In this document: positions 4,239-61,300 of the stretch, piece by piece | Layout of the letters: every line of letters begins with the position of its first letter | Position numbering within the stretch: the first letter of the stretch is position 1 | NCBI GenBank assembly: GCA_025449115.1 | Contig: JAHLKC010000089.1 | Coordinates: 62,001-126,000, forward strand | DNA from: Chytridium lagenaria | Taxonomy: Eukaryota > Chytridiomycota > Chytridiomycetes > Chytridiales > Chytridiaceae | Reading direction: 5' to 3' | Length of the DNA stretch: 64,000 bases | The notes under the pieces: generated by a model | What the model was told of the DNA's origin: nothing | The model's input: only the letters and a program-made list of their open reading frames with translations | The model's database searches: none | Program-made: the position numbers and the translations under genes

Positions 4239-5010
4239 ATGAACATCAAAACTCTTACTTACATCGCTCGTGATCGCTGTTGTCGGAGCATCAGCCCTCC
4301 CCGTGGTTGACTCTTACACGGGTGCTCTTGAGAGAAGGGGTAGGTCTGAAGCGTGAGTGTCCACATCATTGTAAACTCAAAGCATTTTAACCCTTATCCT
4401 AGTCTTGTTGAGAGCGCTTTCTTTGGGGATGGCCTTACGAATGCCAAGTTTGAGGACGACGACTTTACCGCAGATGAACTAGACAACCTCGATGCCGACG
4501 AAATGGAGGCCGACGAGCTAGAAGAAACGGACCTTAACTCTGACGAGCTGGACTCTGATGAGCTCGAGGCTGACGAGCTGGACTCTGATGAGCTCGAGGC
4601 TGATGAGCTGGACTCTGATGAGCTTGAGTCTGATGAGCTCGAGGCTGACGAGCTTGACGCTGATGAGCTTGACGCTGATGAGCTTGACGTTGATGAGCTC
4701 GAGGCTCCCGCTTTTGACGCTTCAAGCTGGTATAGGCGGGTTGGGCTCGACCCGAGGTCGCCTCGAGCGAGATCGACGCTGACGAGCTTGAGGCTCCCGC
4801 TCTTAAAGCTGCAGAATGGTATAGGCGGCGTTACGCTCGGCCCGAAGTCGCCCCAGTGAGCTCGACGCTGAAAGTTTTGAAGCTGACGAGCTTGCTGCTT
4901 CCGCGGGCCGTGGAAGGCGTAGGGGTAGGGGACGTGGACGTGGACGTGGACGTCGTCCCAGGCCTGCACCAGCACCAGAGCCAGCACCAGCTGAGCAGCC
5001 ACAAGAGTGA
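4239..5010 (+). CDS. DADEL-A: secreted acidic pentapeptide-repeat protein with Arg/Gly-rich tail
   Basis: First of six paralogs. Exon 1 (4239-4352) encodes a signal peptide starting MNIK and ending near GASA, then a Kex2-like LERRGR. A phase-2 intron (4353-4402, GTGAGT...CCTAG) follows. Exon 2 encodes ADELDNLDADE and then tandem pentapeptides of the type [DE]-[AS]-D-E-L. Next come two copies of WYRRR[WY]ARPEVA, and a basic GRGRRRGRGRGRG block ending in a Pro/Ala/Glu tail (stop 5008-5010). Three single-base breaks interrupt it: one extra A in the AAAA of codon 4 compared with DADEL-B and -C, one missing base near 4738, and one missing C near 4855. The two WYRRR copies act as an internal ruler for the last two breaks. 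No known domain. Function is unknown. The protein would be a polyampholyte with an acidic block followed by a basic block. Confidence 0.75.
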
Positions 5011-5727
5011 TTACATTGAAAGCTTTTGTTCAACCTCAAGTAAGCTACGCACGATATATGTATTTTTCAGATTGTGTTTTAATTTGTTTTCAATAAACCA
5101 AATCCATATCTTTTTTCGTTCCGTCGCATCCCTTTCTTTATATTCTTACATGGATTTATACACCGGTCGCGTTTTTCGATATGCGAGCTCAAGGTTCACC
5201 TGCCTTCATCAATGCAATCAGGAAGGCTGGTGTAAATGTAGACCTGAACTATTGTTTACAGCATCGTATGTCGGTAGTTCGTCATGCGGGTGCCGGCTGC
5301 TGGTCTAGTAATCAGAGACATTCAATAAAAGTAAAGTAGGAACAAACTGATGTCATGGAACCGATGAAAAGCGAACTGCCTTTAAGTAGGTATCGCAATG
5401 AGTACGTACGCAAATGAGTAATGAGCTCAGGCGATAATCCAGCATGGCTGAGATAAGGGGGGCAGACTCACCAAAGGTGCTTCACTGAAATGCTCCACTA
5501 CGAAGGCGGGGTTAGTTGTTCAAGAAAATCGAAATGTGTCTCGAAATGTCAGAAACACGGCTGGTAAGGTTTCACGCGCACTTGCCGCCAAAAAGTATGT
5601 CAACGGCATCGCGAGACAAACGATGACGAGACAAAGAGCCTCGAGACAACCGGCGGCGGAATGCGAACCTGTACATAAACAAAAAGGAAGGGTTCCCCAC
5701 ACATTTTCTCCATTAAGCCATTAAGCA
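5011..5727. other. Intergenic between DADEL-A and DADEL-B
   Basis: No gene seen. The region must hold the DADEL-A terminator and the DADEL-B promoter. I find no clear TATA box near 5728. Confidence 0.4.
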
Positions 5728-6337
5728 ATGAACATCAAACTCCTACTTACATCGTTTGCGATCCTTATTGTCGGAGCTTCAGCTCTCCCCATCTCCGACA
5801 CCAGCTATGCAGGTGGTCTTGAGAGGAGAAGCAAGTTTAAAGGGTGAGTATTTTTCGATCTATCGTTCTTTCATTGTTCAATGCTTGTCTAATCAATTAT
5901 CATTATTTAGTCTCGCAAAGGCCTCCCTCTTCGCCAACAACCTTGCGGAAGCCAAGTTTGCAGAGGACGACCTTGCAGCAGATGAAATCGATAACCTTGA
6001 CGCGGACGACTTTTCTGCCGACGAGTTAGAGGAGGTCGACCTTGACTCTGACTACCTAAACGCTGACGACCTCAACGTTGACGAGCTTGAGGTTGATGGT
6101 CTCGATGCTGATGAGCTTGAGGCTGATGGTGTTGATGCCGATAACATCAGCGCTGACTATCTCAACGTTGCAGAGGCGAAAGGTCACAAACGTCATCGCA
6201 GAAAGAGGAAGCACCACGGCCATAAACACAATAAAGGTCACGGCCATAAAGCGCATGGTCATGGCCATGGCGCCCATGCCGAGGCCCATGCCGAGGCCCC
6301 TGCCCATGCCGAGGCCCCGGCCCACCCAGCTGAATGA
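5728..6337 (+). CDS. DADEL-B: secreted acidic repeat protein with His/Lys-rich tail
   Basis: This gene is intact. Exon 1 (5728-5843, 116 nt) encodes the signal peptide MNIKLLLTSFAILIVGASA and a propeptide with GLERRSK. A phase-2 intron (5844-5910, GTGAGT...TTTAG) follows, then exon 2 to the stop at 6335-6337, giving 180 residues. Exon 2 opens like DADEL-A (AKF-x-x-DD, DNLDADD, ADELEE) and continues with degenerate pentads around D-A-D-E-L. It then switches sharply at GHKRHRRKRKHHGHK to a His/Gly/Lys stretch and ends with AHAEAPAH repeats. More than 15 His in the last 50 residues suggests transition-metal binding, which is inference. It is the tandem neighbour of DADEL-A in the same orientation. 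No catalytic motif is visible. Confidence 0.85.
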
Positions 6338-7059
6338 AACACCAAAGGTGCTTGAGCCAGGAGTGCTGATACTTTGATGTTTTATTTATCGTGTTTTGTA
6401 ATTTCAGTATAATCTGTTTATTTTTTTTTGTATCTGTCATAAGAAAAATCCTCTATTGTTGCTTCGCTCGTTCGCCTGAAAATAAAGAAATGTATTCAAA
6501 AGTGTGAATAGTTTTAATATCACGTTTTGCATTATTCCGATTCCTTTATTGGCAAATCACGTTATAGCCGTTTTTGGAAATGGATTGAATAAAAGGTTAA
6601 AAAAGGATATGACAGTTGATCGTGTCTAACCGAGGCTTTGAAAATAGCAGGAAAATCAGATCTAAAGTTCCACAACTCTTAATCCACAACTCTTTATCCA
6701 AAACCCCGTAACCCTGTCCCGCTTTCTTTTAGCGCGTTTTTTAAATGACTTTTATGTAGCACGATAACCCTTTCTTGGCTAGAAATGAAAAAGGCGCATA
6801 AGCGCTAGCGTAATTTTGAGTAATCACAGCCTTTATAGAATCGAAATGGAAAAGTGCATAACCGCGAACGTAGTTTTGAGTAATCAAAAATACATATATT
6901 CACAAAACTTTATAAAAAAGCAAGAACAACACAAAAAACAGCTTTGCAATACTGAAAGGCAGTCAAAAAAGAGGATAAAAACGAGGGTAAAAGATTTTTT
7001 CTAAAAACAAACAACCAACAACTACAAAAACAACGCCATCATACGGCAAGTGAATGTAT
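6338..7059. other. Convergent intergenic region
   Basis: AT-rich spacer between the 3' ends of DADEL-B (+) and DADEL-C (-). No gene or RNA recognised. Both terminators should lie here. Confidence 0.4.
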
Positions 7060-9100
7060 CTACTTTCTTCCTTGTGCAGCTCTTTGGGCGACGTTTCTCG
7101 CCATTTGGAGAATATTGAGGAAGGGGAAGATGGGTCTGGGTTGTTGTTGTTGCATTTGAAAGAATGAGTCGGCATCAAGCTCGTCAGCGTCAAGCTCATC
7201 GGCATCCATCTCGTCAGCGTCCAACTCGTCAGCGTCAAGCTCATCAGAGTCGAGGTCCACTTCCTCGAGTTCATCGGCGGAAAAGTGGTTGGCCTCATCG
7301 GCGTCGAGTTCGTCGGCATCAAGGTCTTCAGCATCAAGATCGTCGGAATCAAGGTGGTGAACTTCGTCGACGTCGAGTTCATCAGCGTCAAGGTGGTTGG
7401 CCTCGTCGACGTCGAGTTCGTCAGCGTCCAAGTGGTGAGCCTCGTCGGCATCAAATTCTTCAGCGTCAAAGTAATCGGCATCGAGATCATCAGCGTCCAA
7501 CTCGGATTGAAGGTGGTGGACGTTCTCAGATTGAAGGTGGTGGACACCCTCGGAACGGAGGTGGTGGACTTCGTCCGCGTCAATCTCGTCAGCATCAAGG
7601 TGGTTCACTTCATCCGCGTCAAGCTCGTCAGCGTCAAGCTCATCGGCGTCGAAGTGATTGGCCTCATCTGCGTCAAGCTCATCAGCGTCAAGCTCATCGG
7701 CGTCCAAGTGGTTGACTTCGTCAGCATCAAGCTCGTCAGCGTCAAAGTGGTGAGCCTCGTCGGCGTCAAGTTGGTTAGCACCCTCGGAGCGAAGATGGTG
7801 CGCCTTCTCAGACTGAAGGTGGTGAACGCCCTCGGATCGAAGATGGTGAACACCCTCTGCGCGTAAATGGTGAGCTTCGTCAACAGCGAGTTCATCAGCA
7901 TCAATCTCGTCAGCATCGAGGTGGTTGACCTCGTCAGCGTCAATCTCGTCAGCGTCCAAGTGGTGAGCCTCATCAGCATCAATCTCGTCGGCGTCCAAGT
8001 GGTTCACCTCATCCGCATCAAGCTCGTCAGCGTCCAAGTGGTTCACTTCATCAGCGTCAAGGTGGTTGGCACCCTCTGAACGAAGGTGATGTGCCTTCTC
8101 TGATCTAAGGTGGTGGACGCCCTCTGAACGAAGGTGGTGAACTTCATCAGCGTCAATCTCGTCGGCATCAAGGTGGTTAACTTCATCTGCGTCCAAGTGG
8201 TTGACCTCATCGGCGTCAAGGTGGTTAGCACCTTCAGAACGGAGATGATGTGCCTTCTCTGATCTAAGGTGGTGGACGCCCTCTGAACGAAGGTGGTGAA
8301 CTTCATCAGCGTCAATCTCGTCGGCATCAAGGTGGTTGACTTCGTCCGCGTCCAAGTGGTTCACCTCATCAGCATCAAGGTGGTTAACTTCATCCGAGTC
8401 CAAGTGGTTGACCTCATCGGCGTCAAGGTGGTTGGCACCCTCAGAACGGAGATGATGTGCCTTCTCAGATCTAAGTGGTGGACGCCCTCAGAGCGAAGGT
8501 GGTGAACTTCATCAGCGTCAATCTCGTCGGCATCAAGGTGGTTGACTTCGTCCGCGTCCAAGTGGTTCACCTCATCCGCATCAAGGTGGTTAACTTCATC
8601 CGAGTCCAAGTGGTTGACCTCATCGGCGTCAAGTGGTGGGCACCCTCAGAACGGAGATGATGTGCCTTCTCTGATCTAAGGTGGTGGACGCCCTCTGAAC
8701 GAAGGTGGTGGACTTCATCAGCGTCAATCTCGTCGGCATCAAGGTGGTTGACCTCGTCAGCGTCCAGTGATTCACCTCATCAGCATTAAGGTGGTGGGCT
8801 CCCTCGGAGCGAAGATGATGTGCCTTCTCAGATTGGAGGTGATGGACTCCCTCGGAGCGAAGATGATGTGCCTTCTCAGATTGAAGGTGGTGGACTCCCT
8901 CAGAACGAAGGCTACATTCAAATGATTAGACAAAATCCCATTCAATAAAGTAAAGGCTTCAACATAAAAACTAAACCACCCCCTTACCCTTCAACTCTGC
9001 CCCTTTTCTCAAGAGCAGCAGACCTCTGACCCACAACAGGAACAGCCGATGTACCGACAACGACGATAGCGAGCGAAGCTAAGAGGAGTTTGATGTTCAT
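7060..9100 (-). CDS. DADEL-C: large secreted acidic protein with His-His octapeptide repeats
   Basis: Exon 1 (9100-8988, 113 nt) encodes a signal peptide starting MNIKLLLAS, and LEKRGR as a Kex2-like site. A phase-2 intron spans 8987-8912. Exon 2 (8911-7060) is almost wholly repeats. One is an octapeptide of the form L-x-[AS]-[DE]-x-[VAI]-x-H, as LDADEVNH, LRSEGVHH, LRSEKAHH and LQSENVHH. The other is the pentapeptide DADEL/DADEI. The C-terminus is DELDADSFF and a Gln-rich tail (QMQQQQPRP...). Three one-base deletions (near 8475, 8634 and 8763) break the frame. Together they restore it: coding length is 1965 nt, a multiple of three. About 655 residues. The HH pair recurs every eight residues over long stretches, which suggests a multivalent metal-binding polymer (inference). 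Confidence 0.8.
8043..8770 (-). repeat. Higher-order tandem repeat inside DADEL-C
   Basis: A coding minisatellite. The anchor CGTCAATCTC (+ strand) recurs at about 8151, 8310, 8516 and 8722, giving periods of 159, 206 and 206 bp. The 206-bp units are 207 bp (69 codons) minus one base each. The 159-bp unit is 48 bp shorter, which is exactly two octapeptides, so unit length changes in whole octads. Confidence 0.8.
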
Positions 9101-9794
9101 CGTTGACTAGTATACAAAAACGATGAAGGTGGGTGTATCAAAGACGGTGTGGGTGCCCGTCGTCGTCTCTACGAAACAAAAAAAGAAATGGAAAAAGAAT
9201 GCTTCAAAGTTCCTGTCTCATCCGTCTCCTTTTTAGATTTTTTACCTTTAATCAGCGCAGACAAGAATGTCAAAATAAATTACTTGGGATTACAAGCAAG
9301 CCATTTGGACAATTCCAAAATGTGTCTGTTGTGATGAATTGTCATCCCCATTTATGGCATTCGTAATGGCAAAGTACAAGACGCAGTCGAGCAAGCAAGC
9401 CAACCCTGAGCATGCGTCACCAAATGGCACACCAATGAGAGAAAAAGATGCCGAAATGATACGGACCCGCGAAAAAAGTGGGTAGACGCGAAAGAGGCAT
9501 GCAATATTTAATAATGAAGGAATGAATGTGGAGGACTTGGATGTCTTTAAACGAGAGGATTGACAGGCGCACATCTACTCGTGAGTCATGCTACTGTGCC
9601 TGTCAATCCTTGAGTGTTTAACGGTCCTGGCGGTTCTACTTCTACTTATTACAATATCTAATTCACAGCCAGACGTCAAGACACAGATTGCAAAACTCCG
9701 TCAAAGAAATAAAAGTGAGAACAACGCATGTAAATATATATTTAGACAGAGAATGACAGGTACAAAGAAAAAGACAACACATCCATCAACAACG
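9101..9794. other. Intergenic between DADEL-C and DADEL-D
   Basis: Upstream region of DADEL-C and downstream region of DADEL-D, both on the minus strand. Several 60-95-residue frames overlap here but none has a domain or signal peptide. Confidence 0.4.
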
Positions 9795-10378
9795 TTACAT
9801 CCCAAACATGGATCCAATGTTAGCCACAGCCGGTGGAATAGGAACGCCAGCGTCTTTCATTGACGACATAATAGGAAAAAATGAGTCGGCGTCAAGCTCG
9901 TCAACATCAAGGTCATCTGCATCCATTTCATCAACGTCAAGGTCATCAGAGTCCATTTCATCATCATCCAGCTCATCGGAATCAAGTTCATCCATGTCTA
10001 GATCCTCAGAATGAGTTCTCGTGCTTCATCAGCATCAAGATCCTCAGAATCGAGCTCTCGTGCTTCGTCAGCATCAAGATCCTCAGAATCGAGCTCTCGT
10101 GCTCGTCAGCATCAAGATCGTCAACATCGAGCTCGTCAACGCGCCCAGCGTTGCTTGCGAATCTTGATGAATGAACGTTTCTGGCAACAGCACTGATGAA
10201 AAGTCGAGTTACTTTTATATATCCATGACAAGAGCACGGACAGAAAATCCGAACAGAATACTTACGCTTGTGCATTATGCTTTAGGTTTACAAGTGCGGA
10301 TGATCCATGGCCTATGGGAGCTGAGAAAACAGCGTGTACAGTGAGGACGAGCAGCGGGAACATGATCTTGAGATTCAT
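9795..10378 (-). CDS. DADEL-D: short secreted acidic repeat protein
   Basis: Exon 1 (10378-10266, exactly 113 nt as in DADEL-C and -F) encodes a signal peptide starting MNLKIMFPLL and ending near VFSAP. A phase-2 intron (10265-10193, GTAAGT...CATCAG) follows. Exon 2 encodes VDELDVDDLDADE and then a decapeptide-like repeat DADEARELDSEDL. Pentads such as DSDEL and DVDEM come next, then DELDADSFF and a short Met/Pro/Ala tail ending SMFGM. DADEL-C shares DELDADSFF at the same place, so this motif marks the end of the repeat domain in both. Two one-base deletions, near 10110 and 10013, break the frame within near-identical repeats. No dibasic site is obvious in the leader, unlike most of its paralogs. 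Confidence 0.72.
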
Positions 10379-12414
10379 TTTGACAGGACGTTTAGTGGTG
10401 TGGAATATGAGTATTGCGAATGAACTGAACGTCGACACAGAAATGTGTTTCTTTTATGTAAACCACGTCCTCCATAAACCTAAGATCCCTGGAGCTGAAT
10501 TTTAGGCAATATTGTAAAAACTTTCCTATTCAAAGAACAAATAAAATTGCCACCATCAAATTATAGAAGTTTTAGCTTGAATGTCTGAGAATATCATGGC
10601 AGGTAAATCAACCCGTAAACATTAAGAATAAAGAGGAGAGCTCAGGTAGCCTGTTTGATATTACGGCGATCACACGCCCAAAACGAGAAAATATGCGAAA
10701 GATAGGAATAGCCCCAAAACTAAGCCAAAACCAACGGTCATCGTTATAATATGAAGGCTAGATCTAAGGACAGACGGGTTCTCCTAAACTTTTGCTTGTA
10801 AAAAGACATGGATACGGATGTTTATAAAGAATTTGGATTGATATAAATTAAAACTTCTATAATTACGCTTATATGTTCGATAATGTACTTGCTTTATCTT
10901 GACAGACACCCCAAATTTGTAAGCACTTACTAATTTACTCTTTAACGACTGACATCCTGCAAAGGCGCAGTCCCAAGATCTGACCATAATTCCATAATAC
11001 CTAGCCATACAAGGTAGCAGTGTTGATTTAAAATAAATTTACGACCACACCAAAATTCCGCTCACAATAAAGAAATGAAACGTAGTGAAGACAGACGAGA
11101 CCTCAAAACTGAGCTAGTCACTGACGTTAACATTAAACGTTATTCTCTTATTTCACATAATGAAAGCCTTTATTTAAAATTAATGTGCACTTGGTGTACT
11201 CTTGCAACAGCATCGAGACACCCAAAACCTGTTCAACTGCAGCCATATACATAAACCATTCAAGCCACACAAAGTATTCTGGTTTAAACTTTAATTTCAC
11301 GAACTAAAGGGGTGTGGTTTTTTTGCGTCTTTTTGCATGTGGAGTTATAGTCCAAGAAAATAAACCTAACGATTATCATCTACCCACCTATATTTATATA
11401 AATATTTTTGTGCATGATCATTTCACGTCGGATTTAAGGTACACGCACCTGAATAAAAAAAAATATATAAACCGCTGCGTATACAGAAGAGATATAAGTG
11501 ATAATTACCGATGAGGCTTGAATTGAGGCTTGGTCCTCCATATTAGAGCTCAGGTCTGACGGAATCAAGTAGGCACCAGCCCGCGGAATAACTGTCGGCG
11601 TCAACGTTCTAGACCAACGCTGATAATGATAACTGCGAGATTCTCACCAGTCATAGCTGCCACCATCTCATCAACATTTCATTTAAGAATCAACAATACC
11701 ATATCATTTTATGCCGACGTCCCCACCACATCACAATTGTCATCAAGGGATCGTCATGCTCGATGAAGGAAGACGCCGTTATGGAATCCAAGGATGATGC
11801 AATGTTACATCATTTTACGCGGTCATAAGAATATGGATTTTGACAAAGCGCTTGAGCAAAGCAGTGTCGCTAGAACTTGAGACTGTCATCTGAAGCTTTG
11901 GTAGAATGGCATCTGTTGAGTCATTCCACAAGCAAACTGGTGTGATAATAATGGTTGTGCTGGTGCATCGTCATGTTTTTAATTGTTGAGAGGGATCGAA
12001 GAAATAGCTGTCAATATTTTAGTTATGAAGACGAGGGAGGACCATCGACCCATTCCTTCATGAAGTCTAAAAGCTCAACTCCCTCATGTCTTCTTCAAGG
12101 TTTAACCCCTTGCCCTTTTTTTGACGTCTCCTGGCAGCGACCGCAGCGTTTTCTCGCAGGCTCAGTCCAAACGTACAATTTCGGACAAGGTCACGTGACG
12201 TCCTAATAAGGTTGACAGGTCCCGCTGCAAGCACCAGGTCCTAACCGTCAGCCTCCAAAGCTGAAAGTGAATCGAAGCACTGCGGAAGCCGGAGTCATGG
12301 CATGCAAAGATCAATTCCTGGAAGAAGATGGAAGCTGGCGGCGGGCGAATATTGAAAAAAAAAAGAAGAAAAAGTATTAATAAAAGAGAAGCTTGACTAA
12401 TTTCTTTCAAACGC
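10379..12414. other. Two-kilobase stretch without a supported gene
   Basis: AT-rich around 10.5-11.5 kb. I found no gene, tRNA or transposon end in it. The 83-residue frame at 11955 has no support. Confidence 0.4.
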
Positions 12415-12420
12415 TATAAA
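12415..12420 (+). promoter_or_regulatory. TATA box of the Pro/Ala/Tyr-rich gene
   Basis: TATAAA lies in GCTATAAAAG, 65 bp upstream of the ATG at 12485. The leader between them is pyrimidine-rich. Confidence 0.65.
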
Positions 12421-12484
12421 AGCAACCCCCAACGTCTTCACCGTCAGCCTATTTCTCTCACCCAGACTTAACAAATCATCAACA

Positions 12485-12708
12485 ATGCAGTTCCTTAGCT
12501 TCTTCGTCGTCCTCGCCTTCATCGCCTCCGTCTTCGCAAGCGGACCCACTGCTGCCCCCGCGGCCCCTGCTCCCGCATACCACGCTGCGGCCCCCTCGCC
12601 CTCCCCGGCCGCTTACTACCAGGCTCCCCCCCTCCCCCTCCCCCTGCTCCCGTCTACTACGAGGCTCCCGCTCCTTCGCCTTCCCCTGCTGCTTACTACC
12701 GCCGTTAA
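12485..12708 (+). CDS. Small secreted Pro/Ala/Tyr-rich protein
   Basis: The protein starts with a clear signal peptide (MQFLSFFVVLAFIASVFAS). The mature part is a low-complexity chain of APAP, PSPSPAAYY and VYYEAP. The C/CT-rich run around 12625-12650 contains a frame change: after it, the frame that keeps the repeat (APAPSPSPAAYY) ends in Arg-Arg at a TAA at 12706-12708. The other frame runs on to 12736 but loses the repeat. About 74 residues, single exon. Short Tyr/Pro repeats like this are common in fungal cell-wall or matrix proteins; crosslinking through Tyr is possible but not shown. It sits inside the DADEL cluster. Confidence 0.7.
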
Positions 12709-14433
12709 GCGTGTGAGTGCTGTTAGGATGTGGTGATACCGTCAAGACTATTTTGTTTGCAAGACCCGTTTGCGTCAAGATGACTGCCTTTTGTGCTTGA
12801 GATACCTATTTGTTTCTTTCTTTTCTTTATGATGTTGTGTGAGCTGCCCCTTTTTTTTTGGCTGTCAACGCATGCCCTTCTCGTCTTGTTTATTTGCCCC
12901 CTCTCGTCTGCAGCGTTTGCGTGTGGTGAATGAACATGTATGGGATTTGCGGCTCGTTTTTTTAGTTGAATATCAGCGTGCGCAGCTCTACCACCCCTTT
13001 TTTTTTATTGAGCTCCTTTTTGTTTCCTGTAATGATTTCTTCCCGTTTGGTTGATTTTGCTATTTAATTTGACGCATCGTTTGTCAAATAAAATTATTTG
13101 GGCTTTGGACTTGGAACTTTTGTTTGACTTTTTGACTTTGACGTTGACGGGACAGGGGTGCCCTGGTTTGAGTCTGTGGACCGGAGATGGCGTCGGTGAT
13201 GTAAACATGATGCAAGCAACGTACCCACGATGCTTCGAATTGGTTATCGTGGGTCGTCATTGATCATGATCACTAAAGTTGAAGGGCATGCGCAATAATT
13301 AGGTCCCATCTGTGATGACCTTTCCGGCAACGGCAGACGTCCAACGAGATCGTTTCCGGTCGTTGACTGCCTGCGAGCCTGAAACTGCTGAACGGCCATA
13401 CATCACCATAAAGACTCTTGCCTTTAAGTATAATCAAAATTAATCTCCTCGTTCGCAACTATCTCACGTATAAGCGTACTAAATATCCCCATTCTCAATT
13501 AACACGGAAAAAAGTGTTAGGACTATAGCTTTCATTTACATGTATCAACAGGTTTCTCTGGTAATATGGTAAAAGATCACTGGAATGTGCTGTGTTATAG
13601 GTGTTTAGTCCAACAAATGAGGGTGAATGGCTCTCCATGGCTTTGGGTAATTTTAATGCAGTATGAGATTGAAGTGGGGGATACTTATTATGGATGCTCG
13701 TTTACCAAATATGTGCTTTCAATAAACCATGTTGTAAATATCATCGCTGATTAGGTGGTTTAATTACAGGCAACGATGGAGGCGAAGGGACCACGGATGA
13801 CTATATGAATGAGGCCATCGCTCATAAAGCAGCAACTCTCTTTAACTAGATTATTTCCTCAACCACCGTCGACGTAATCTTCCATCCCGGCCCATGTCCA
13901 CCGTCCTTATATTCACAACAGGGTCATACCATTTCTAGCTGTTCGCAAACACGGTATCTAGTCGATATTTTTCAATCTAAAATGCAATGGATGAGAGTTC
14001 TTGGCTGAACTACAAAGCCACACTGTTGTGGTTGCTCGTGCCTTTAAAGGCCGATCGATGCTCTGTCATTGCTATGATTCACTGGTGTCTGCTAAAGTCG
14101 ACGAAGTAATGAATGCACAGGGTGAATATCGGGGCGCATTTAATGGCTGGGTCCTCTTGTTAACGCAGAGGCAAGTTGCGCCGCCGTTCATCTGCTCCTT
14201 CGTCCCTTGACGGCAGAGTCAGACCACAGAGACAGAGATGTGATAAACTAAATGAATTGTCAGTTTGCATAGAACCGAGACAAAAAAATAAGTTTAAAAA
14301 AAGATGCGAATGTGTCTCGCTTGCAATCCAAAATACCTTTTTTATTAAAAACACACTTGCCCGTCTTGGTTTTTATTTTACCCCACACCCATCCATCCAT
14401 CCAGCCATCACACCTCCATCCAATCACTCAAAG
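12709..14433. other. Intergenic, no gene seen
   Basis: About 1.7 kb holding the 3' region of the small Pro/Ala/Tyr gene and the promoter of DADEL-E. Just before the DADEL-E start there is a pyrimidine-rich CATCCATCCATCCA stretch (14388-14403). No other gene recognised. Confidence 0.4.
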
Positions 14434-15561
14434 ATGAAGCTTATCACCATCATCCTCGCTGCTCTCTCCATCTCCATCGCTGCTGTCAATGCGGCCCCCT
14501 TCCTGCCTCGTTGGAGGCTGCGGCTAGGTTGAACGGTTTCTTGGCCAAGAGGGACTTTACGGATGAGTGAGTGCTTGTCTTTCTTGTGTGTGTTGTGCTT
14601 GGGTGTTTGGGAGGTTGCTATTGTAATATTTCATGGTCATGGAGGAAGGAGGATGGGGTGTCGCGATGGGTATCTGGAGACGGGATGCACACCGACTTTG
14701 AAGGAGAAGCGGAGAGAATGATAACAGGACAGACTCTTGCTATATCCTCAAATCGCGTAAAAGATGGCAAAACATGAAACTCACTCATGATTAAACAGAC
14801 TTTCTGCCGACGAGTACGAGACTGACGACCTCACCTACGACGAAGCCGCTGCCGATGAATTCGTTGGCGACGAGTTCACCGCCGATGAACTCGCTGACGA
14901 CGACTTTGCCGCTGACGAGCTCTCTGCCGACGAGTTTGAATCTGACGACCTCACCGCCGACGAGGTTGATGCTGATGAGTTTGAAGCTGACGAATTCGCC
15001 GCTGACGAATTCGCTGCTGATGAGCTTGAATCTGATGACCTCACTACTGACGAGGCCTCTGCCGAGGAATTCGACACCGACTCCCTCGCCTATGACGGTG
15101 TCTCTCCCAACTTTATCGCCGGTGAGCCCCTTGAGGCTGATGAGGCCGATGTTTCTGAGGTTCAGAGCCGTGGAGCCGCTTTCGCTTCCAGCGAGATTGA
15201 CGCTGATGAGCTTGAGAGCGGTGAACTTGAGGCCGACGAGGCTGACGTTGACGAGCTCGACGCTAACGAGATTGACGCTGACGAGCTTGATGCTGATGAG
15301 GCCGATGTTGACGAGTTGGACGCGGATGAGATGGATGCCGATGAGTTGGACACGGACGAGGCCGACGCTGAGGACCTTGATGCTGATGAATTGGATGTAG
15401 ATGAGTTGGATGCTGATGAGGCCGACGCGGAGGACCTTGATGCTGACGAAATTGAGGCGGACCCTTTCGCAGAGGAGGAGCTTGAGGCTGAGGGTGTTGA
15501 GAGTGCGGAGGTGCAACCTGAGGCCATCCAGGCTGAGGCTCACAACCACCACAACCACTAA
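14434..15561 (+). CDS. DADEL-E: secreted acidic repeat protein with His-rich end
   Basis: Exon 1 (14434-14566) encodes a signal peptide MKLITIILAALSISIAAVNA and a propeptide ending in FLAKRDF, a Kex2-like site. It lacks one base near 14503, since the length is 133 where 134 would give the phase-2 join. A 232-bp intron (14567-14798) follows. Exon 2 (14799-15561) is uninterrupted: about 250 residues of pentads in three flavours, ADEF, ADEL and DADEADV, with occasional Gly and a central GEPLEADEAD. It ends with AEAHNHHNH before TAA. It is strongly acidic with very few basic residues. This is the best-preserved long member of the family. Secretion is well supported; function is unknown. Confidence 0.82.
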
Positions 15562-16454
15562 GCAATGAACATTTTTGGGAAACATGCGGTTGGGATGGGG
15601 AGTGTTAGTTTGATCCTTTAGATTGGTACAAGGATTATTTTGTTACTTTGCTTGTACGGGATTGTTCTGCTTTAATCCTACTCCTTTGCCTCTTTGCGTC
15701 GCATGTTTTTGTTTCCTTTTTGAATGTCTCGTTGCTTTTTCTAGGTCACCCCTTTCACCTAATACTCCCATTGCATTCCACTTACCCTCTTCTCTTGTCG
15801 CGATCCTCTACATCTGTGTGAACTTGTCGTGTCGCCCTATCTTTCCAATGTTTTTTTTATTGACCACTGTGTTTTTGTTTTTTTTCCTTTCCATCTCTCT
15901 TGTATGTATACGCGTTTATTCTTAGAATGTGAGGAATAGAGTTTCTAATCTTTCACGCCATTTAAAGCATAATCTTTATTATTTTTTGTCTGCGGTTCTC
16001 TACGATAAAAATATGTTCTAATGCTATAACTGTCTCATCTGAAGATGGAGCACTTTTGATCAACCCAAACATATTTACTTAATCAGCCTTCATAAAACTC
16101 TGATGTAAAATATTACCAAAACGAAATGAGGTCCTTACCACACCTTCCTCCTCCTCATTCATCATGGCCATCGTAATGCAATCTTGGCCACGTCCAGCCC
16201 ATCAATTGAAAATAAAAGGTTTGTTGCCCTTTGGATGGTGTACTTTGCCCTGTTTGTCTCTCCTGCGAAAAAAAGCATCAGACTTTTCAGAGACACATTT
16301 TTTTTCGTAAAAGACAACTTTCCATAAATCACACCTCCCAACTTGAGTGCCTCAGCCAGACAAAAATCTTCATTTTCTCATTCCAACTAGCCCGTTGTCC
16401 GTCGTCCTCGTCGCTCCGTCTCATCCCAACACATACACTTTTTAACATTCAACA
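15562..16454. other. Intergenic between DADEL-E and DADEL-F
   Basis: No gene seen. T-rich stretches at 15840-15890 may contain the DADEL-E polyadenylation region. No clear TATA box precedes DADEL-F. Confidence 0.4.
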
Positions 16455-17221
16455 ATGAGAATCTCTGCTATTCTTGCTTTCTGCGCTCTCTTTGTCAGCG
16501 TTGCTGTTGCAAGCAACGTTGAGGGTGTTGCTGCCCCCGCTCTTGCCAAGAGGGAGGAGGTTGAGGCGTAAGTTTGCTTTCTATCTACTTGCATTCGTCA
16601 TTCTGTCATTTTCATCTCCATCTTTATCTGCTTGCTCTTATCGGTTCCTGGGTGAACAAATGCGCACAGCTCTGTCTCCCTTAAAGCCATATAGACACAA
16701 AATACTAACCCTCTTTTTCTCATGACAGTGTCGCCGCCGACTCTTTCGACGTCTCCGAGGCTGCCGCCGTCGACGCCCTTGCCTCGGACGACTTTGAATC
16801 CGAAGAAGCCACCGCCGACGAGCTCGACACTGACGAAGCCACAGCCGATGAGCTCGACATGGACGAACTTGACGCTGACGAACTTGACGCTGACGAACTC
16901 GACGTTGACGAGCTCGTTGACCTTGATGCTCGTTCCGTTGACGAGCTTGATGCCGATGAGGTTGACGCTGATGAGTTTGACGTTGACGAGGTTGACGCTG
17001 ATGAACTTGAGGAGGATTCTTTGGATGCGGATGAACTTGAGGAGGATGAGCTTGAGGGTGATGAACTTGAGAGCGAGGAGTTTGACGCTGATGAGGCTGA
17101 TGCCGATGAGGTTGACGCTGAGGAGGTTGACGCTGAGGAGGCCCAACCTGCGGAGGCTCAACCCGAAGAGGCCGTCGCTGAGGAGGTTGAGCCCCAGGAG
17201 GCCGTTGCTGACGAACAGTAA
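16455..17221 (+). CDS. DADEL-F: secreted acidic repeat protein, Glu/Gln/Pro tail
   Basis: Intact: exon 1 16455-16567 (113 nt), phase-2 intron 16568-16728 with ACTAAC before its CATGACAG end, exon 2 16729-17221; 201 residues. The leader is MRISAILAFCALFVSVAVAS followed by a propeptide with ALAKREE (Kex2-like). The mature protein opens with SFDVSEAAAVDAL, continues with D-[AV]-D-E-[LV] pentads and ELEEDEL stretches, and ends in AEEAQPAEAQPEEA repeats. The last member of the cluster, in the same orientation as DADEL-E. It is the most Glu-rich of the six. There is no known domain; it is very likely disordered. Confidence 0.87.
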
Positions 17222-25045: not shown

Positions 25046-26260
25046 ATGCCTTCAGACAAGTCTTACAAGAACATTGCACGTCACCTTGACGGAACCCGCT
25101 GACTGGCCCTCGTTCGTCAACGGCGTCAAGAATTGGGTCCAACGCCAAGGTTCAGCCTACAAAGGCGTCTTCACCAAGGCATACTACGATGAAAAGCATG
25201 AAGACTTCGAGAAACGAAGCACCAACTCTGCGAAGGTGGTCAGGCCATCTTAAGCAATGTCTCTTCAGACATCCTCAAGGTGGTGAACGAAGCACCTACC
25301 GGAAGTTCGTCTACGGCAAGGCGTCTCATGTATTTCCTCAAGAAGACCTACGGCGTCGGCAACATCACCGTGGTTGGCGAACTTCGAGACAAACTCCGCG
25401 AGATCAAGTACGAAGCTAAAGACACACCTGTGTCCTTCACGACTCGTGCCAAATCCCTTTGGCAGTTCCTCGTCGACGCCAACCAAGCCGAACAAGCAAC
25501 CGAAGCTCTTCTCTGTGAGCACCTTGCCAAAGCACTTCGTGAAGCTGGCAAATCAACCCCATCTGGACTTCATCCAGGTGCGATGACTAGCCAAACTCAC
25601 GACAGTGAAGGCAATTCAGAAGGAAATGGAGAGTGCAGTTAGCATTCATAAGCGCACTGGCGCTTCCACTGTTCAAGCTCTTACCGTCACAAACAATAAC
25701 GGCAAGCAGCACAACAAGAACCCTGCGGGTCAAGGCAACAAGAACGGCAAGACCAAAGACAGGCTTCATCAGCTCCAACCTGATGCTAAACTTATTGCCA
25801 AAGCAGGTCCTAACTCGGTTCACTCAACGGGTTTTACCTTCGGCCAGTTAAAACGCATGTCCAAGGCCAGTCGTCTTGAGATCTGCAAAGATCTTACTTG
25901 TGTTGCTTGCAACACAAAAGGACACATATCCATCGATTGCCCCAAATCCGCAGGTTCCAAGACAGTTTCGCACACGCAAACTAATTACAAGGCCACTCAA
26001 TCCCTTCTCGCAATGGTGAAAGAGCTCAAGGCAGAGGTCGCTACCCTCAAATCTTCAAACAAGACTCAAGTGAACCACGTCACCGTCAAGGAACGTGAAA
26101 CTCCAAGAATCGAGGTCATTGAACGTGACGACGGCAAACGCACACTTGATACGGCACTAGTTCCAAGCAAACGACCACGCTTTGCATTCCACGCCATGAT
26201 CAACCCCAACAAGTTCGACACCGTCAGTCACCACATTCACCCCGACCTCGACACTGGAGT
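25046..26260 (+). CDS. copia Gag region with CCHC zinc knuckle, frame-broken
   Basis: The first ATG after the LTR is at 25046. The gag region is spread over at least three frames, with breaks near 25090, 25240 and 25590. It includes DWPSFVNGVKNWVQ near the start and a capsid-like central part containing MYFLKKTYGVGNI. The nucleocapsid-type knuckle CVACNTKGHISIDC (C-x2-C-x4-H-x4-C, residues around 25910-25950) is intact. A Lys-rich stretch precedes the knuckle. Gag packages the element RNA in virus-like particles (known for the family). The breaks lie at or near short runs and repeats. Confidence 0.8.
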
Positions 26261-29200
26261 TAGTCAATGGGCCTTCGACCACTGGCCTCACCGACCAAGC
26301 TCTCACTCCCTTCGCAGAAGACCTTCAAGATCCTACACCCTACCGCACTAGCGTTGATGGGGCCTTCGCTGGCGAGCAAAGCGAATTGATGGGAACCATT
26401 CGAGGATTCACAAACCTTGGTTTTCCCATCCAATTCCCAGCTCTTTTACGTCCCTGGTATTCGCGTTCGACTCGTCTCAAGAAACTCTCTTCGAGATGCA
26501 GGTCTCTACCTTCAAGATGGACCGATGGTTCTTTCCTCACGAGAAATGGGGACGGCGAAGTTGCAGAAGTAATCACGGCTCCATCTGGACTCATGATACT
26601 CTCATTATCACCACAAGGACCCCGCGCTCCCGAAAACATCAACGCACTCGTGACTATCGTTGACGCCAACGACTTCTCTTCTTTCCATGCAGACGGTCAG
26701 TTTGATCTCGCCAACAGAACTGCCATGGAACGACAACTAGAGAAGATCCATACCTCCCTTGGACATCCATCTCGACAAGTCCTGAAAAGGATACTTCGTC
26801 GTAAACAAGATTACGGCATCGGTTCCAAGGCTCTAGTCCGCTATCTTGACGCACTCGACCCCTGCAAAGTATGTTCAGCAACTCGCCAACGTAAAACATC
26901 CAAACACGACTCAACAAGAGCTCACCTTCGCCGTCTTCAACGTCTACACGTTGATCTCGGGTTTGGACCAAGCCAAGCACCCCACAAGGGCACTACGGCA
27001 GTTGGCATCATTGTCGACTCATCCACCACATACATTTGGGCATCCCTTCTCCCATCCAAAGGAGCGATCGTCGACAGAGTAACAGTCTTGATAGAGAAGC
27101 TGCGTCGTGAATTCCATCACACCCCAGCTGATCCCATCATCACTGAACTCCGCGCTGATCAAGGTCGTGAACTCAAGAGTAACGAATTCACTCAATGGTG
27201 CGAACATCAAGGCATACGAGCCACCTGGACCGATGCAGACTCTTCTTGGATGAACGGCGTCGCTGAACGAGCCATAAGAACGGTATTCACCAAAGCACTT
27301 GCCTTGATGCTTCAATGCCGCTTACCTCTCTGGTGTTGGGGATATGCAGTCCTGCACGCAGTTTACTTGCATAATCACATCCCTTCCACCAAGAAAGGCG
27401 CACTCTCGCCTCATGAATCTCTTTACGGCCACCAACCAAGCCTCAAGGACTTTCATCCCTTTGGCTGCCTCGTCGGCGTCCACATCACCAAAACAAACCG
27501 AGCCCACCGCATGGAACCTCGCATCGCCAAACACATATTCATCGGCATCGAAAGCTCTTCCAAAGCACAAGTTCTGGACATTCACACTGGCCATGAAACC
27601 TCTGTGGCCTTAAAGAATTGCGACTTCTTTGACCGACGCTTCCCAGCGATATACGGTTCTAAAGAAGCACCACGCAAACTCTCGCTCGCACTTGACGGAG
27701 CTCTACAGTTTATTAATGGTAACTACTCATACTATCATTGCATCCACTCATCATCTCCTAACTGCCTTTTCATATGCAGATGAACAAGACACCATGGAGA
27801 TCGACTCCCCTTCAGAGGATGAGGGCAATGCCGACGCCACCCTTACCGCAAAGGTAATGCTTAAACACCCTGCAAAGTGTTTAAAATTGTGGACTGATAT
27901 GTATGGCTCTTACGCTGTTGGTCGCTAGATCCATGTAGTTAATGGGTGGAAATATTGCTAAGATATTGGCTCTCATGCCCCCATCATCCAATTAATACAC
28001 TTTATCAACCAAACTTGATTGTTATGACTTTATTACATTCCTTTCCATCACTCGTTTTAACATCAACTTTCTCTTTAATCAGCGCCAACGTGAGAGTCGT
28101 CCACCACCTCACGACCCCCAGGATTCCAATCGTCCTCGTCCGGGGGGAAGGAAGCAACAAGCAAACCGCGTTGAAAACTCAGACTCCGACGATTCAGAAC
28201 TCTCTGATACAGACCAGCCCAAGTACTCTTCTCGGTGGTCTCGTCCAGACTCTGAACCAACAAGCGAGGACGACGGGAACCCTGCACCTGTTCCCATTAA
28301 GCATATCTTCGATGACACCGAGGCCGAGTACGTTACAAGCGATGGCGACGAGTCCGACCTTGGCAATTACACCGATCGATCAATCGATGAGGTAATGCCA
28401 ACCAGTACAGGCACTCGTTCTGGCCGTCAGGTCAACAAGCCAACTCGGACCTACAACACAAGTGTCACTGAACCTTACGAGCCGAGGCATCAACCAGATC
28501 CACTCACCCAACGAGAAGCACTCTCAAGACCCGATGGACAAGAATGGCGTGACGCTTGCCTCGCTGAGATAGAAGCCCTCAAGCTCCGTCAAGTCTACGC
28601 ACTCGTAGATAGGCCTCCTGGTCAACATGTCATTGGTAGCAAATGGGTGTTTCGCCTCAAGAAAAACCCGGATTCTACCATCCGGTACAAAGCTCGTTTA
28701 GTTGCCAAAGGCTTCACTCAGAAGTATGGCATCGACTTCCTGGAAACCTTCTCACCAGTGATACGTGCGGAAACCCTTCGCTGGCTTTTCAGTTACGCCG
28801 TATCTCGTGGACTCGAAATCCACATGGCCGACGTAGTAACTGCCTATCTTTATGGCGACATGGACCACGCGGTCTACATGGAACAACCACAAGGTTTCGA
28901 GGATGGCACCAACAGAGTTTGGTTACTCGTTAAGTCCCTTTACGGTACAAAACAAGCTGGTCGGCGTTGGAACATCTGCTTAACCGACTATCTCAAAGAG
29001 ATTGGGTTCATTGCAAGTTACGCCGACCCATGCTTATTCATCCTCGACACCCCTGGAATCCTCATAGCCATCTATGTGGACGACCTTTTCTTCTTTGGCA
29101 CTAACGAAGCCATCACCACGGCTCTGGATTACCTGCAAGCTCGATTTGAAGTCAAAGTCATCGGATCAGCAAGTTTCGGTCTTGGTGTTGAGTTCAGTAA

Positions 29201-30065
29201 AGTCAATCAAGGACTACTCTTACACCAGCAAAAGTACGTCATGGAGCTCAAAAGACGATTCTTCCCAGAAACACACTTTTCTCCAATCTCGACTCCCATG
29301 GACTCCACCACCAAGCTTTTCCGCAAGAAACCTGAAGAACTCGAGTCAAGCGGACCATACTCCAAGCTCGTCGGTGCATTAATGTACCTCGCGACTCAAA
29401 CGCGACCGGACATCAGTTATGCTGTATCTGTCACCGCCAGATACATGGGAAACCCATCTCAAGCTCATTGGCAAGCAGCTGAACGAGTTTTTCGTTATGT
29501 TTGGAATACACGCGACTTAGGGGTGCTTTTCACAAAAGAAGGTCACCACACCGTCGTAGGTTTCTGTGACGCCTCGTTCCAGTCTGATCCCAATGACAGC
29601 AAGTCCCAAGTCGGCTACGTCTTCTTTCTTCGGCGGCAACCTGGTCTCGTGGCGAAGTTGGAAGCTTAGCACCATCTCGCTATCAACAGCTGAGGCAGAA
29701 TATCAAACGTTATCAGAAAGTGCACGAGAGATAGCGTGGATTTTCAAGTTACTTGAAGAAATCAACGTACCTCTCCGTCCAATTAACCTCTACAACGATA
29801 ATCTTTCTGCCATCCATCTCGCTTACAACCCTGAGCACCACGAAGCCACCAAGCACATTCGACGATCCGTACACTACATACGTTGATATGGTTGAGCAAG
29901 GTTTTCTTCAACATCAAACCAGTTGGAACGAATGACAACGTTTCTGACATACTCACCAAACCTCTCAAGCCTTCTGCTTTTCTTAAGCATCGAGACACCC
30001 TAGGAATGCATCAGCTATCAGTCTTGTTAGCACAGCTTCCAAACCTGGGGGGAAGTGTTGGTTGA
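26225..30065 (+). CDS. copia Pol: protease, integrase, reverse transcriptase, RNase H
   Basis: Domains in order. Protease: DTGVS at about 26248, with breaks on both sides. Pre-integrase: FYVPGIRVRLVSRNSL, then the HHCC zinc site as IHTSLGH and CKVC. Integrase core: Asp in HVDLG, Asp in RADQGRE, Glu in NGVAER. Two probable introns (27719-27779 and 27854-28082) follow, with the acidic linker DEQDTMEID between them. Reverse transcriptase: from PDGQEWRDAC through SKWVFRLK, RLVAKGF, DVVTAYLYG, to the active site IYVDDLFFF. RNase H: GFCDASF, then after a one-base break near 29640, STAEAEYQ and YNDNLSAI. Another break near 29884 leads to DILTKPL. The last codons run into the 3' LTR, with TGA at 30063-30065. 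Most of the integrase and reverse transcriptase is uninterrupted. Confidence 0.9.
27719..27779 (+). other. Probable spliceosomal intron 1 inside copia pol
   Basis: 61 bp, GTAACT...TATGCAG with CTAAC about 19 bp before the acceptor. The upstream codon is split after its first base (G at 27718) and is completed as GAT by bases 27780-27781. Read through, the frame ends at a stop right after the intron. Confidence 0.72.
27854..28082 (+). other. Probable spliceosomal intron 2 inside copia pol
   Basis: 229 bp, GTAATG...TTTAATCAG, phase 0. It has stops in the reading frame and a TTTAACA branch-like site near its end. Removing it joins the acidic linker to an open frame starting at 28083 that runs without a stop into reverse transcriptase at 28395 and beyond. 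Confidence 0.7.
30047..30055 (+). other. Polypurine tract of the copia element
   Basis: GGGGGGAAG immediately precedes the TGTTGG of the 3' LTR. This is the usual plus-strand priming site. Confidence 0.85.
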
Positions 30066-41971: not shown

Positions 41972-44256
41972 ATGTCCGTTGAGAAGAAGGTTGAAGAGAC
42001 CACCGTCGAGGTCGTTTCAGAGAAGCCAATGGAGGTTGTCCCCCTCGCTGACGCTGCCGTCCCAGAGGAGGAGGCCGACAAGGCCTTCAAGCCCCATGTT
42101 GGCAAGAGGCCCCGCAACACCATGCTCCTCCACGCTGCCATCTGGTTGTTGTTGACCGCCTACATTATTGCTTTGATCATCAAGGGTCAAGGAAAGGTGA
42201 TTATCAATTGAGTCCACCTGTTTTCTGTCTTGTTGTTGTGTCGAATCTCCTCGCATCATCATATTGACACTTCATCATCTGTTTGATCATTTAGGTTGGA
42301 TACGAGTTCTCCATCGTTGTCTACGTCTTCATCTCCCTCCGTCTCCTCGCTCAACACGTCTCCATCTCCTACTTTATCTACGGTAAGAACCTGTTTTTTT
42401 GATTGTAGTTTAGTTTCTGTTTTTATTCTCGATCACACACTGCATCCGTTTGTTCTTCCGTTTCCGTTATCATCGTTCACTTTATCGCAGTTGTCTTTAC
42501 CCCAGCCAAAATGCTGGTGCTTTTTTTTTTTATCCCACGGCCGTTTGTCTTCACTTTTTTTTCTTTTTTTTTTCCCCTTTCTCACAAATTGTCACTTTCC
42601 TTTTCGAGTTATTTTTGTGCCCTCAGCCCATGAGTTGTCAAATTTATTTGTTTATTTCGTGTGACGCTCGGCGTTTCTTTCATTTTGACTTTGACCATTT
42701 CTGGTTGGTTCTTTCTGATTCGAGGGGGGCTTGGAGTCATCATTTTCCCACACAGTTCATTCTCTCTTTGTCACGTCACGTCCATTTCCTCACGCCTAAC
42801 ATTTATGATTCGTAGGCCCTATCAGCAACGCGGTCAACGGTATCGTCGGCGCTGTCCCCGAGTCTGGCCGTAACGCCCTCTCCAAGTTTCAGCAGCCTTA
42901 TCCTCGGTGCTGCCTTCCTTGTCGCCATCATCGTCACCGCTGTCGCCTCCCCCGCCACCGCGACCGGTACCATCGGTCAGCGTCTCCAATCCATCGCTGG
43001 TCTCGTCTGCATGGTCGGTATTCTCTACGCCACCTCCACCAACCGCGCCAAGATCCCGTGGCACACTGTCGTGTCTGGTCTTCTTATCCAGTTCATCCTC
43101 GCCCTTTTCATCATGAGGACCACCCTTGGTGTCAACATCTTCATCTTCATCTCCAACATGATCACCGACTTCCTTAAGCTCTCCTCCTCCGGCATGGTCT
43201 TCCTTTTCGGTCCCTCCATCCTTACCGTCCAGAACTTTGCCGTCGGTGTTCTCCCCGCCATCGTCTTCTTCTGCTCCTTTGTCTCCATCGTCTACTACCT
43301 TAACGGTATGCAATACGTTGTCGCAAAGATGGCTTGGCTCATGGTCCGTCTCATGGGTACCTCTGGTTCTGAGTCCGTCGTCGCCGCCGCCTCCCCCTTC
43401 GTCGGCCAAGGTGAATCTGCCCTCCTCGTCCGTCCCTTCATCGAGTACATGACCACCTCTGAGCTCCACTCCACCATGACCTCTGGTTTCGCCACCATTG
43501 CCGGTTCCGTTCTCCTCGCCTACGTGGAGGCCACCGGTAACACCCCGAGGCCACCGCCACCCTCCTCACTGCCTGTGTCATGTCGATCCCTTGCTCCCTC
43601 CTCATCTCCAAGATGCGTTACCCCGAGACCGAAGAGTCCCTCACCCGTGGTGCCGTCAAGATCCCCGAGAACGAAGAGAAGGATGCCAACTTCCTCCACG
43701 CCGCCGGAAACGGTGCCGCCACCGGTGTCCAACTTATCCTCTTGATCGCCGGTTCCCTCCTTGCCATCGTCTCCCTCTACGAGTTGCCAACTTCCTCTGC
43801 GGTTTCCTCTTCTTCATGGTTGGTATCGTCAACAACGTTGACGGTGGTATCCGTGTTTCCATCGGTTTCATCCTCTCCTACGTGTTCACCCCCTTCGCCG
43901 TCGCCATCGGTATCGCCCCCAACCAAGCCCGTAAAGCCGCCGAATTCCTCGCCACCAAGATGGTCGTCAACGAATTCGTTGCCTACTCTTCCCTCAACGG
44001 ATACGCTTTCCTCCCCGCCTCCGCCCCCGGTGCTCCCCTTGTCCCCTCTGGAAACTTTGACGCCCGTACCATCCGTCTCATGGCCTTTGCGCTCTGTGGG
44101 TTCGCCAACTTTGCCTCCATCGGTATCCAGATTGGTTGTCTCGGAGCCATGGCGCCTTCCAGGAAGAAGGATTTGGCGACCCTCGCTCTCTCTGCTATGC
44201 TTTGCGGTACCGTCTCCACTTGGATGACTGCCGCCGTTGCTGGTGCCCTTATCTAA
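41972..44256 (+). CDS. Concentrative nucleoside transporter (CNT/NupC/SLC28 family)
   Basis: A cation-coupled nucleoside importer of the plasma membrane (known for the family). Exon 1 41972-42196 encodes an acidic N-terminus and the first membrane helix (MLLHAAIWLLLTAYIIALI). Introns are 42197-42294 and 42383-42815, the latter with CCTAACA before its acceptor. Exon 3 carries PWHTVVSGLLIQFILALFI, GMVFLFGP, the nucleoside-site motif GQGESALLVRPFI, MTSGFATIAGSVL, then LCGFLFFMVGI. The hallmark C-terminal block is TKMVVNEFVAYS and ALCGFANFASIGIQIGCLGAM. About 600 residues, with 10 or more helices. Three one-base breaks (near 42890, 43540 and 43795) interrupt exon 3; all motifs on either side are preserved. 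Assembly indels are the likeliest cause. A single gene with no functional partner nearby. Confidence 0.93.
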
Positions 44257-53592: not shown

Positions 53593-53660
53593 AAACTTAT
53601 TACACAAAAGGAACAAAGAGGAGAGGACAGATAAAGAGAAGGAGAGAAATAAAAAAGACT

Positions 53661-53730
53661 GCGTCGACCGGGAATCGAACCCGGCACTAGTGCTTGGAAG
53701 GCGCTTATTATACCACTTAACTATCGACGC
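53661..53730 (-). tRNA. tRNA-Gly (anticodon TCC)
   Basis: 70 nt. Acceptor GCGTCGA pairs with TCGACGC; the T-arm is CCGGG-TTCGATT-CCCGG; the anticodon loop CTTCCAA gives TCC. The anticodon stem has one C-A mismatch (AGCGC with GCACT) and the D stem one G-T pair. No CCA encoded and no intron. Confidence 0.85.
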
Positions 53731-53737
53731 TGAACAC

Positions 53738-53808
53738 TCCGATACGGGGAATCGAACCCCGGCCGCCGCCGTGAAAGGGCGGAATCCTAACCGCTAGACG
53801 ATATCGGA
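53738..53808 (-). tRNA. tRNA-Glu (anticodon TTC)
   Basis: 71 nt. Acceptor TCCGATA pairs with TATCGGA; the D-arm includes GTCTAGCGGTTAGGAT; the anticodon loop CTTTCAC gives TTC; the T-arm is GGGG-TTCGATT-CCCC. Confidence 0.93.
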
Positions 53809-53817
53809 TATTGAACA

Positions 53818-53890
53818 TGCTTCGACCCAGGATCGAACTGGGGCCTCTTCCGTGTGAAGGAAACGTGATAACCACTACACTATCGAAGCA
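53818..53890 (-). tRNA. tRNA-Val (anticodon CAC)
   Basis: 73 nt. Acceptor TGCTTCG pairs with CGAAGCA; D-arm TAGTGTAGTGGTTATCAC; the anticodon loop TTCACAC gives CAC; the T-loop is TTCGATC. Confidence 0.93.
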
Positions 53891-53900
53891 GAAGGAGAAA

Positions 53901-53973
53901 TGCCGCCTCTCGGGATCGAACCGAGTACCTTAGCATCTTCAGTGCTACGCTCTCCCAGGTGAGCTAAGGCGGC
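53901..53973 (-). tRNA. tRNA-Phe (anticodon GAA)
   Basis: 73 nt. Acceptor GCCGCCT pairs with AGGCGGC plus discriminator A; D-arm TAGCTCACCTGGGAGAGC; the anticodon loop CTGAAGA gives GAA; T-arm CTCGG-TTCGATC-CCGAG. No intron. Confidence 0.95.
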
Positions 53974-58961: not shown

Positions 58962-58994
58962 TTTTTTTAAACACGATTGAGTGTGTTTGTGGAT

Positions 58995-61160: not shown

Positions 61161-61300
61161 ATCCGGGGACTCTTGTAGGTTCGTTTCCTTGTTGCGATGT
61201 GTGGCGACGGTTTTTCATCATTTGAGTGTGTTCCGTGAGTAGACAATGATGGCGTGGGTTGTTGTTCTTCATGATACCAACAAAAACGATTTGCCCGCGA

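Follow-up and report, generated by a model that had tools for sequence, protein, structure and literature searches.

The acidic repeat genes and their surroundings

The stretch of DNA analyzed here, hereafter the window, comprises 64,000 nucleotides of Chytridium lagenaria (C89:62001-126000) and belongs to an assembly of 41.9 Mb in 356 contigs, which we used for own-genome searches. Between positions 4239 and 17221 we read six genes, base by base and with splicing, four lying on the plus strand (A, B, E and F) and two on the minus strand (C and D). Each follows the same plan, namely a short first exon encoding a hydrophobic leader, an intron and a second exon of D-A-D-E-L-type pentapeptides:

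Gene A, 4239..5010, plus strand: exon 1 4239-4352, intron 4353-4402, exon 2 with a DSDEL/EADEL array and then an RG-rich cationic tail
Gene B, 5728..6337, plus strand: exon 1 5728-5843 (MNIKLLLTSFAILIVGASALP..LERR), intron 5844-5910; 180 residues, reads through
Gene C, 7060..9100, minus strand: exon 1 9100-8988 (LEKR), intron 8987-8912, exon 2 with a mixed array
Gene D, 9795..10378, minus strand: exon 1 10378-10266, without a dibasic site; exon 2 with a DADEARELDSEDL-type array; two frame changes
Gene E, 14434..15561, plus strand: exon 1 14434-14566 (FLAKR), intron 14567-14798, exon 2 of 253 residues
Gene F, 16455..17221, plus strand: exon 1 16455-16567 (LAKR then EEVEA), intron 16568-16728; 201 residues, reads through

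In C, D and F exon 1 is 113 bases long, and in B 116; it has 114 bases in A (one extra) and 133 in E (one short). The introns span 50 to 232 bases. A preliminary description of this DNA had given shared exon-1 length and a phase-2 intron among the grounds for common descent; the phase holds as read in B, C, D and F, and for A and E it depends on discounting a one-base anomaly in the length of exon 1. The intron of gene D starts at 10265 and has a candidate acceptor at about 10193, where several AGs leave the frame open. A seventh cluster member, Z, lies 17 kb upstream and outside the window (C89:45484), with a 54-base phase-2 intron. The combination of leader exon, phase-2 intron and acidic pentapeptide array is thus common to all seven members on this contig, with one-base anomalies in A and E and a tentative acceptor in D. 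By inspection, hydrophobic leaders are present in all seven, though gene A has its leader only in a frame that lacks the ATG: one surplus A after MNIK breaks the leader, which as assembled has no in-frame ATG. A dibasic Kex2-like site precedes the array in six of the seven, the LERR of gene A lying in its exon 1.

The second exon of gene B carries a degenerate acidic array followed by a K/H-rich tail (11 Lys plus Arg and 15 His in 52 residues). That of gene C mixes DADEL pentapeptides with HHLRSEGV/NHLDADEV octapeptides, the period of eight giving an autocorrelation of 0.40 at lag 8, and ends in a short cationic amphipathic segment; its longest open piece has 475 residues, 53 of them His. Exon 2 of gene E encodes 112 Asp/Glu and one Lys/Arg and closes with HNHHNH, while the 163 residues of exon 2 in gene F include 81 Asp/Glu and one Lys/Arg. 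Net charge reaches -142 in the longest open piece of C, -111 in exon 2 of E, -80 in exon 2 of F, -49 in the array of A and -30 in that of B.

A small Pro/Ala/Ser-rich open reading frame with a signal-like start (MQFLSFFVVLAFIASVFASGPTAAP...) lies inside the cluster at 12485-12736 on the plus strand and is not a family member. A CCCACAC-like upstream motif was set aside, since the window has 14 copies of it, spread over both strands. Spliced genes are present in the window, and the genome encodes the flagellar transport protein IFT57 (above its cut-off). Other features of the window are:

25587-29669: pieces of a Copia-type retrotransposon (RVT_2 reverse transcriptase and SH3-like domains pass their cut-offs, integrase core and zinc knuckle do not)
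33588-34921, minus strand, and 45643-46527, plus strand: two beta-lactamase-family (PF00144) genes in pieces, similar by eye
42816..44256, plus strand: CNT nucleoside transporter, outside the family and taken as control, split over three frames by two single-base frame changes
53660-53973, minus strand: four tandem tRNA genes
56786-61214, minus strand: Helitron-like element (Helitron_like_N, PIF1 helicase and DUF6570 over cut-off)

Repeat statistics and frame changes

To quantify the arrays we defined a strict unit, [DE][ASTV][DE][DE][LIVMF], and counted it per stop-free stretch. Gene C has 40 such units (plus six and three in neighbouring frames), E 16, A 12, F 11, D five plus two and B two. 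When the window was Markov-shuffled 20 times, the maximum per stretch was one in 19 runs and two in the remaining one, by which a chance repeat is ruled out; beyond positions 4239-17221 the rest of the window contains no stop-free stretch with two or more strict units. Six genes in 13 kb with signal peptides and D-A-D-E-L pentapeptides, as the preliminary description had it, are therefore seen here with arrays far above chance, its statement that all six carry such arrays needing qualification for the degenerate gene B.

The arrays, in which tandem DNA repeats are present, were also compared with themselves at a lag of one repeat, in eight tracts (D left out) and in the frame chosen by Asp/Glu content. 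Changes at codon position 3 (0.40-0.67) exceed those at position 2 (0.06-0.31) in all eight tracts; an earlier count on pattern-selected units agrees for position 3, but is biased by that selection. In the same eight tracts nonsynonymous differences outnumber synonymous ones among differing codon pairs, from which it follows that, as far as these codon comparisons go, the pentapeptide motif is kept loosely, without residue-by-residue conservation.

Only B and F read through as assembled. The other four genes contain nine single-base frame changes: three in A (that of the leader and two more near 4740 and 4850), three in C (from 8911 to about 8470), two in D and one in E, just past the signal peptide. 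The CNT transporter, which proved a useful gauge of assembly error, has breaks of the same kind: at one of them its C-terminal domain is picked up again in the new frame, the two matched pieces lying about 35 bases apart. Since this conserved gene of the same window shows the same single-base breaks, those in A, C, D and E are probably assembly errors rather than marks of gene death, a judgement that applies to the four together and not gene by gene; some of the four could be dead.

Family members, leader types and cationic ends

Searches of the genome with F and B, combined with reading of sequence stretches, gave at least eight array genes elsewhere, on contigs C12, C34, C26 (two, C26a and C26b), C52, C75, C191 and C207, all such counts being minimum figures. 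We saw leaders in 12 of the 15 members, including five of the eight on other contigs (C26a, C26b, C52, C75 and C207); C12 has only a possible leader, and none was seen in C34 and C191. The donors of C26b and C52 looked like phase 1. Contig C33 was dropped from the count, having one short acidic stretch only, and two sites on C76 that matched our first exact DNA pattern are without an array. Judging from these sequences, the DADEL family is expanded locally and present genome-wide.

Leaders were aligned in 15 pairs, each against 300 shuffles. The pairs A-B, A-C and B-C score strongly above all shuffles (DNA identity in 80-85 of 116-118 columns); C-D, C-F and F-Z, too, rank above every shuffle, with lower scores. 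B-D reaches z 3.6 and is matched by two of the 300, and the remaining eight pairs have z below 2; A-D, A-F, B-D, B-F and D-F thus fail to beat all shuffles. The signal piece of gene E, tried against B, C, D, F and Z, stands above all shuffles only with C. Of 13 sequences scanned, only A, B, C and Z contain the motif [AT]DELEE[VT]DL. Given this alignment pattern and motif distribution, the cluster looks like a set of at least two leader types joined to one common array type. Paralogy on the strength of a shared leader, proposed earlier for all six genes, consequently stands firmly for A, B and C, more weakly for C-D and C-F, and is without such support for A-D, A-F, B-D, B-F and D-F.

A cationic C-terminal part is present in eight of the 15 members (A, B, C, Z, C26a, C26b, C52 and C207), a count made with the ends of C12, C34, C75 and C191 not settled; D, E and F have no such tail. 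Besides the RG-rich end of A and the K/H-rich end of B, there are short amphipathic segments in C and Z (helical moments 0.55 and 0.57, no acidic residue) and large basic blocks, of Lys-Ala-Pro type in C26a, C26b and C52 and K/R-rich in C207. The Lys-Ala-Pro diblock genes have a common C-terminal motif like CRIRRRMVGGRLERRM. A dibasic pair lies near the acidic-to-basic junction of all four large-block members, namely LIRR in C26a, LVRR in C26b, LVRR in C52 and AAKR in C207. Of the four, only C26a and C52 run from the acidic block through the dibasic pair into the beginning of the basic block in a single frame; C26b has a frame change just ahead of LVRR and C207 one shortly past AAKR. The acidic blocks of C26a and C52 contain 52 and 48 Asp plus Glu, and the stretches measured in their basic parts, of 140 and 201 residues, contain 53 and 61 Lys plus Arg.

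The preliminary description knew of no family with this consensus and proposed profile searches as the test of its novelty. No Pfam family came over cut-off for B, F, exon 2 of E, the longest piece of C and pieces of A, D and Z, nor did any NCBIfam model for B, C, E and F, the four window proteins scanned. The closest Pfam entry, PF25296 ('Decapeptide'), gives weak matches (14-33 bits) to A, B, E, F, Z and the Phlyctochytrium bullatum protein HDU96_009883, reaching at most 27.4 bits for window pieces and 32.7 for Z versus a cut-off of 45; a search of the genome with it returned nothing at E 0.001. Far sub-threshold NCBIfam matches of E and B to DotG/IcmE probably reflect periodicity alone. Pieces of F, E and C matched no solved structure, and the open-licence literature, as represented by titles and the starts of abstracts, contained no paper describing this acidic pentapeptide family. 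These sequence searches support the earlier view that the secreted acidic repeat proteins form a family that matches no curated one.

Among proteins at large, B alone matched none of 485 candidates, whereas F alone gave at least six matches with an E value of up to 1, including two from the chytrid P. bullatum. HDU96_009883 (P0001; E 5.8e-15) is the sole significant named relative among the matches listed, the other P. bullatum protein, HDU96_000468 (P0005), reaching only E 0.11. An alignment of eight rows retrieved at least 22 matches; both P. bullatum proteins were among its query rows and score there by construction. We inspected 14 sequences among the matches listed; those not from P. bullatum appeared to be unnamed or bacterial proteins that resemble the arrays over short stretches.

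Possible function and comparison with known systems

Single-sequence AlphaFold models show no confident fold for F (mean pLDDT 56, no secondary structure) or C (47, four low-confidence helices), and on such predictions the chains are probably disordered. Composition, leaders and this lack of a confident predicted fold together point to disordered extracellular polyelectrolytes. In line with this are the codon-position pattern, the periodicity of the dense Asp/Glu arrays at the protein level, the cationic ends of about half the members and the clustering. Our preferred reading, to which we give a probability of about 0.4, is that of a fungal, probably chytrid, locally expanded family of secreted, probably disordered polyelectrolytes that would form gels with divalent cations or polycations. 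Processing would take off the signal peptide and a short pro-piece, the latter at the dibasic Kex2-like site ahead of the array; the remaining chains have two to three carboxylates in every five residues and, once outside the cell, would be joined by divalent cations as well as by polycations, including the cationic ends of the family itself. Periodic Leu, Val and Ile would serve as weak stickers; zinc or copper would also be bound by C, through its His octapeptides, and by B, through its His tail. The product would be a soft coacervate or gel that may serve as wall coat, cyst glue or matrix. A more specific version, for which we hold out rather little hope, is a two-part coacervate cement used as zoospore cyst adhesive, in which preproproteins composed of DADEL polyanion, dibasic site and Lys-Ala-Pro or Arg-Gly polycation would be cut into matching polyanion and polycation chains that condense on release, with E and F, as pure polyanions, tuning the charge balance. 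Against the polyelectrolyte reading in general we count the tail-less D, E and F, the four frame-broken genes of the cluster, the doubtful or unseen leaders of C12, C34 and C191, the frequent amino acid changes between repeats and the low-confidence helices of C. The frame changes beside the dibasic pairs of C26b and C207 count against it too, and chance alone may place such a pair where a K/R-rich block begins.

Two other readings rank next after an ion- or polycation-driven gel, both unlikely on present sequence evidence. Acidic pro-pieces of antimicrobial peptide precursors mask cationic cargo, and the arrays might similarly be pro-regions that mask RG, K/H or Lys-Ala-Pro blocks or amphipathic segments during secretion, dibasic cleavage freeing the cargo. 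The acidic-then-cationic order with its junction pair in all four large-block members would fit, as would the ends of C and Z, with the helical moments given above and no acidic residue, and the acidic-to-GRG junction of HDU96_009883, matched by gene A. However, cargo is missing from D, E and F, C has a very long array, and in C26b and C207 the frame changes close to the junction. A secreted buffer or scavenger of zinc, copper or calcium, equally doubtful, would make sense of the Asp/Glu arrays together with the His of the long C piece and its period of eight, the B tail and the ending of E; yet exon 2 of F and the arrays of A and B are without His, and no metal-transport gene was recognised in the part of the window's open reading frames scanned.

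That the arrays are a decaying or low-complexity by-product of tandem DNA repeat expansion, without selected function, we regard as improbable. The tandem repeats, the frame changes in four of the six genes and the mostly nonsynonymous codon differences agree with it; the excess of position 3 over position 2 changes in every tract, the intact B and F, the like breaks in the conserved transporter and the relative in a second named species, P. bullatum, all speak against it. Mineral control is the least probable of the readings; we know of no mineralised structure in chytrids. Its appeal lies in a composition resembling that of molluscan Asprich, by analogy with which the arrays might work. Charge pairing with polycations seems at least as plausible, given the cationic ends in eight of 15 members.

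To our knowledge, the protein-level basis of the coats and surface sticking of zoosporic fungi is poorly known. An expanded family of secreted polyelectrolytes with polyanion and polycation blocks would offer concrete, cheaply expressed candidates for coat and adhesion proteins, and a model for how charge-patterned disordered proteins evolve via repeat growth.

The nearest analogue in mode is Asprich, likened here by description and not by sequence: its composition is similar and fits the arrays, but it is an animal biomineral protein and, as far as we know, lacks a pentapeptide with periodic Leu. The Asprich shell proteins of Atrina rigida are described as having disordered polyanionic repeat domains, with peptides that are unstructured by circular dichroism and change calcite form (PMC3317751). 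The nearest fungal class of secreted repeat proteins is that of the KEX2-processed repeat proteins (KEPs; PMC6339444). Like them, the cluster members have signal-peptide-like N-termini (by inspection); unlike KEPs, where at least three repeats are parted by KEX2 sites, the arrays of E and F have no such sites (one Arg each in exon 2, no dibasic pair). PF25296, which appears on the precomputed label of HDU96_009883, has an acidic-hydrophobic periodicity like that of the arrays, but stays below cut-off.

Also close are the two P. bullatum proteins. A shared middle domain adjoins the arrays in both (about residues 155-245 of HDU96_009883, where DUF4258 matches weakly at 16.2 versus a cut-off of 25 bits, and about 1-90 of HDU96_000468) and has no match in this genome: of 16 genomic matches to HDU96_009883, 15 fall at residues 234-333 and one at 110-141, and all 17 to HDU96_000468 start at residue 90 or later. 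HDU96_009883 as such is not encoded here, its best match having 52% identity over residues 234-333. Both proteins nevertheless carry DADEL/EADEL-type acidic arrays as found here, and HDU96_009883 adds a signal-like leader (by eye) and a GRG-rich stretch, residues 110-141, that matches the RG-rich tail region of gene A.
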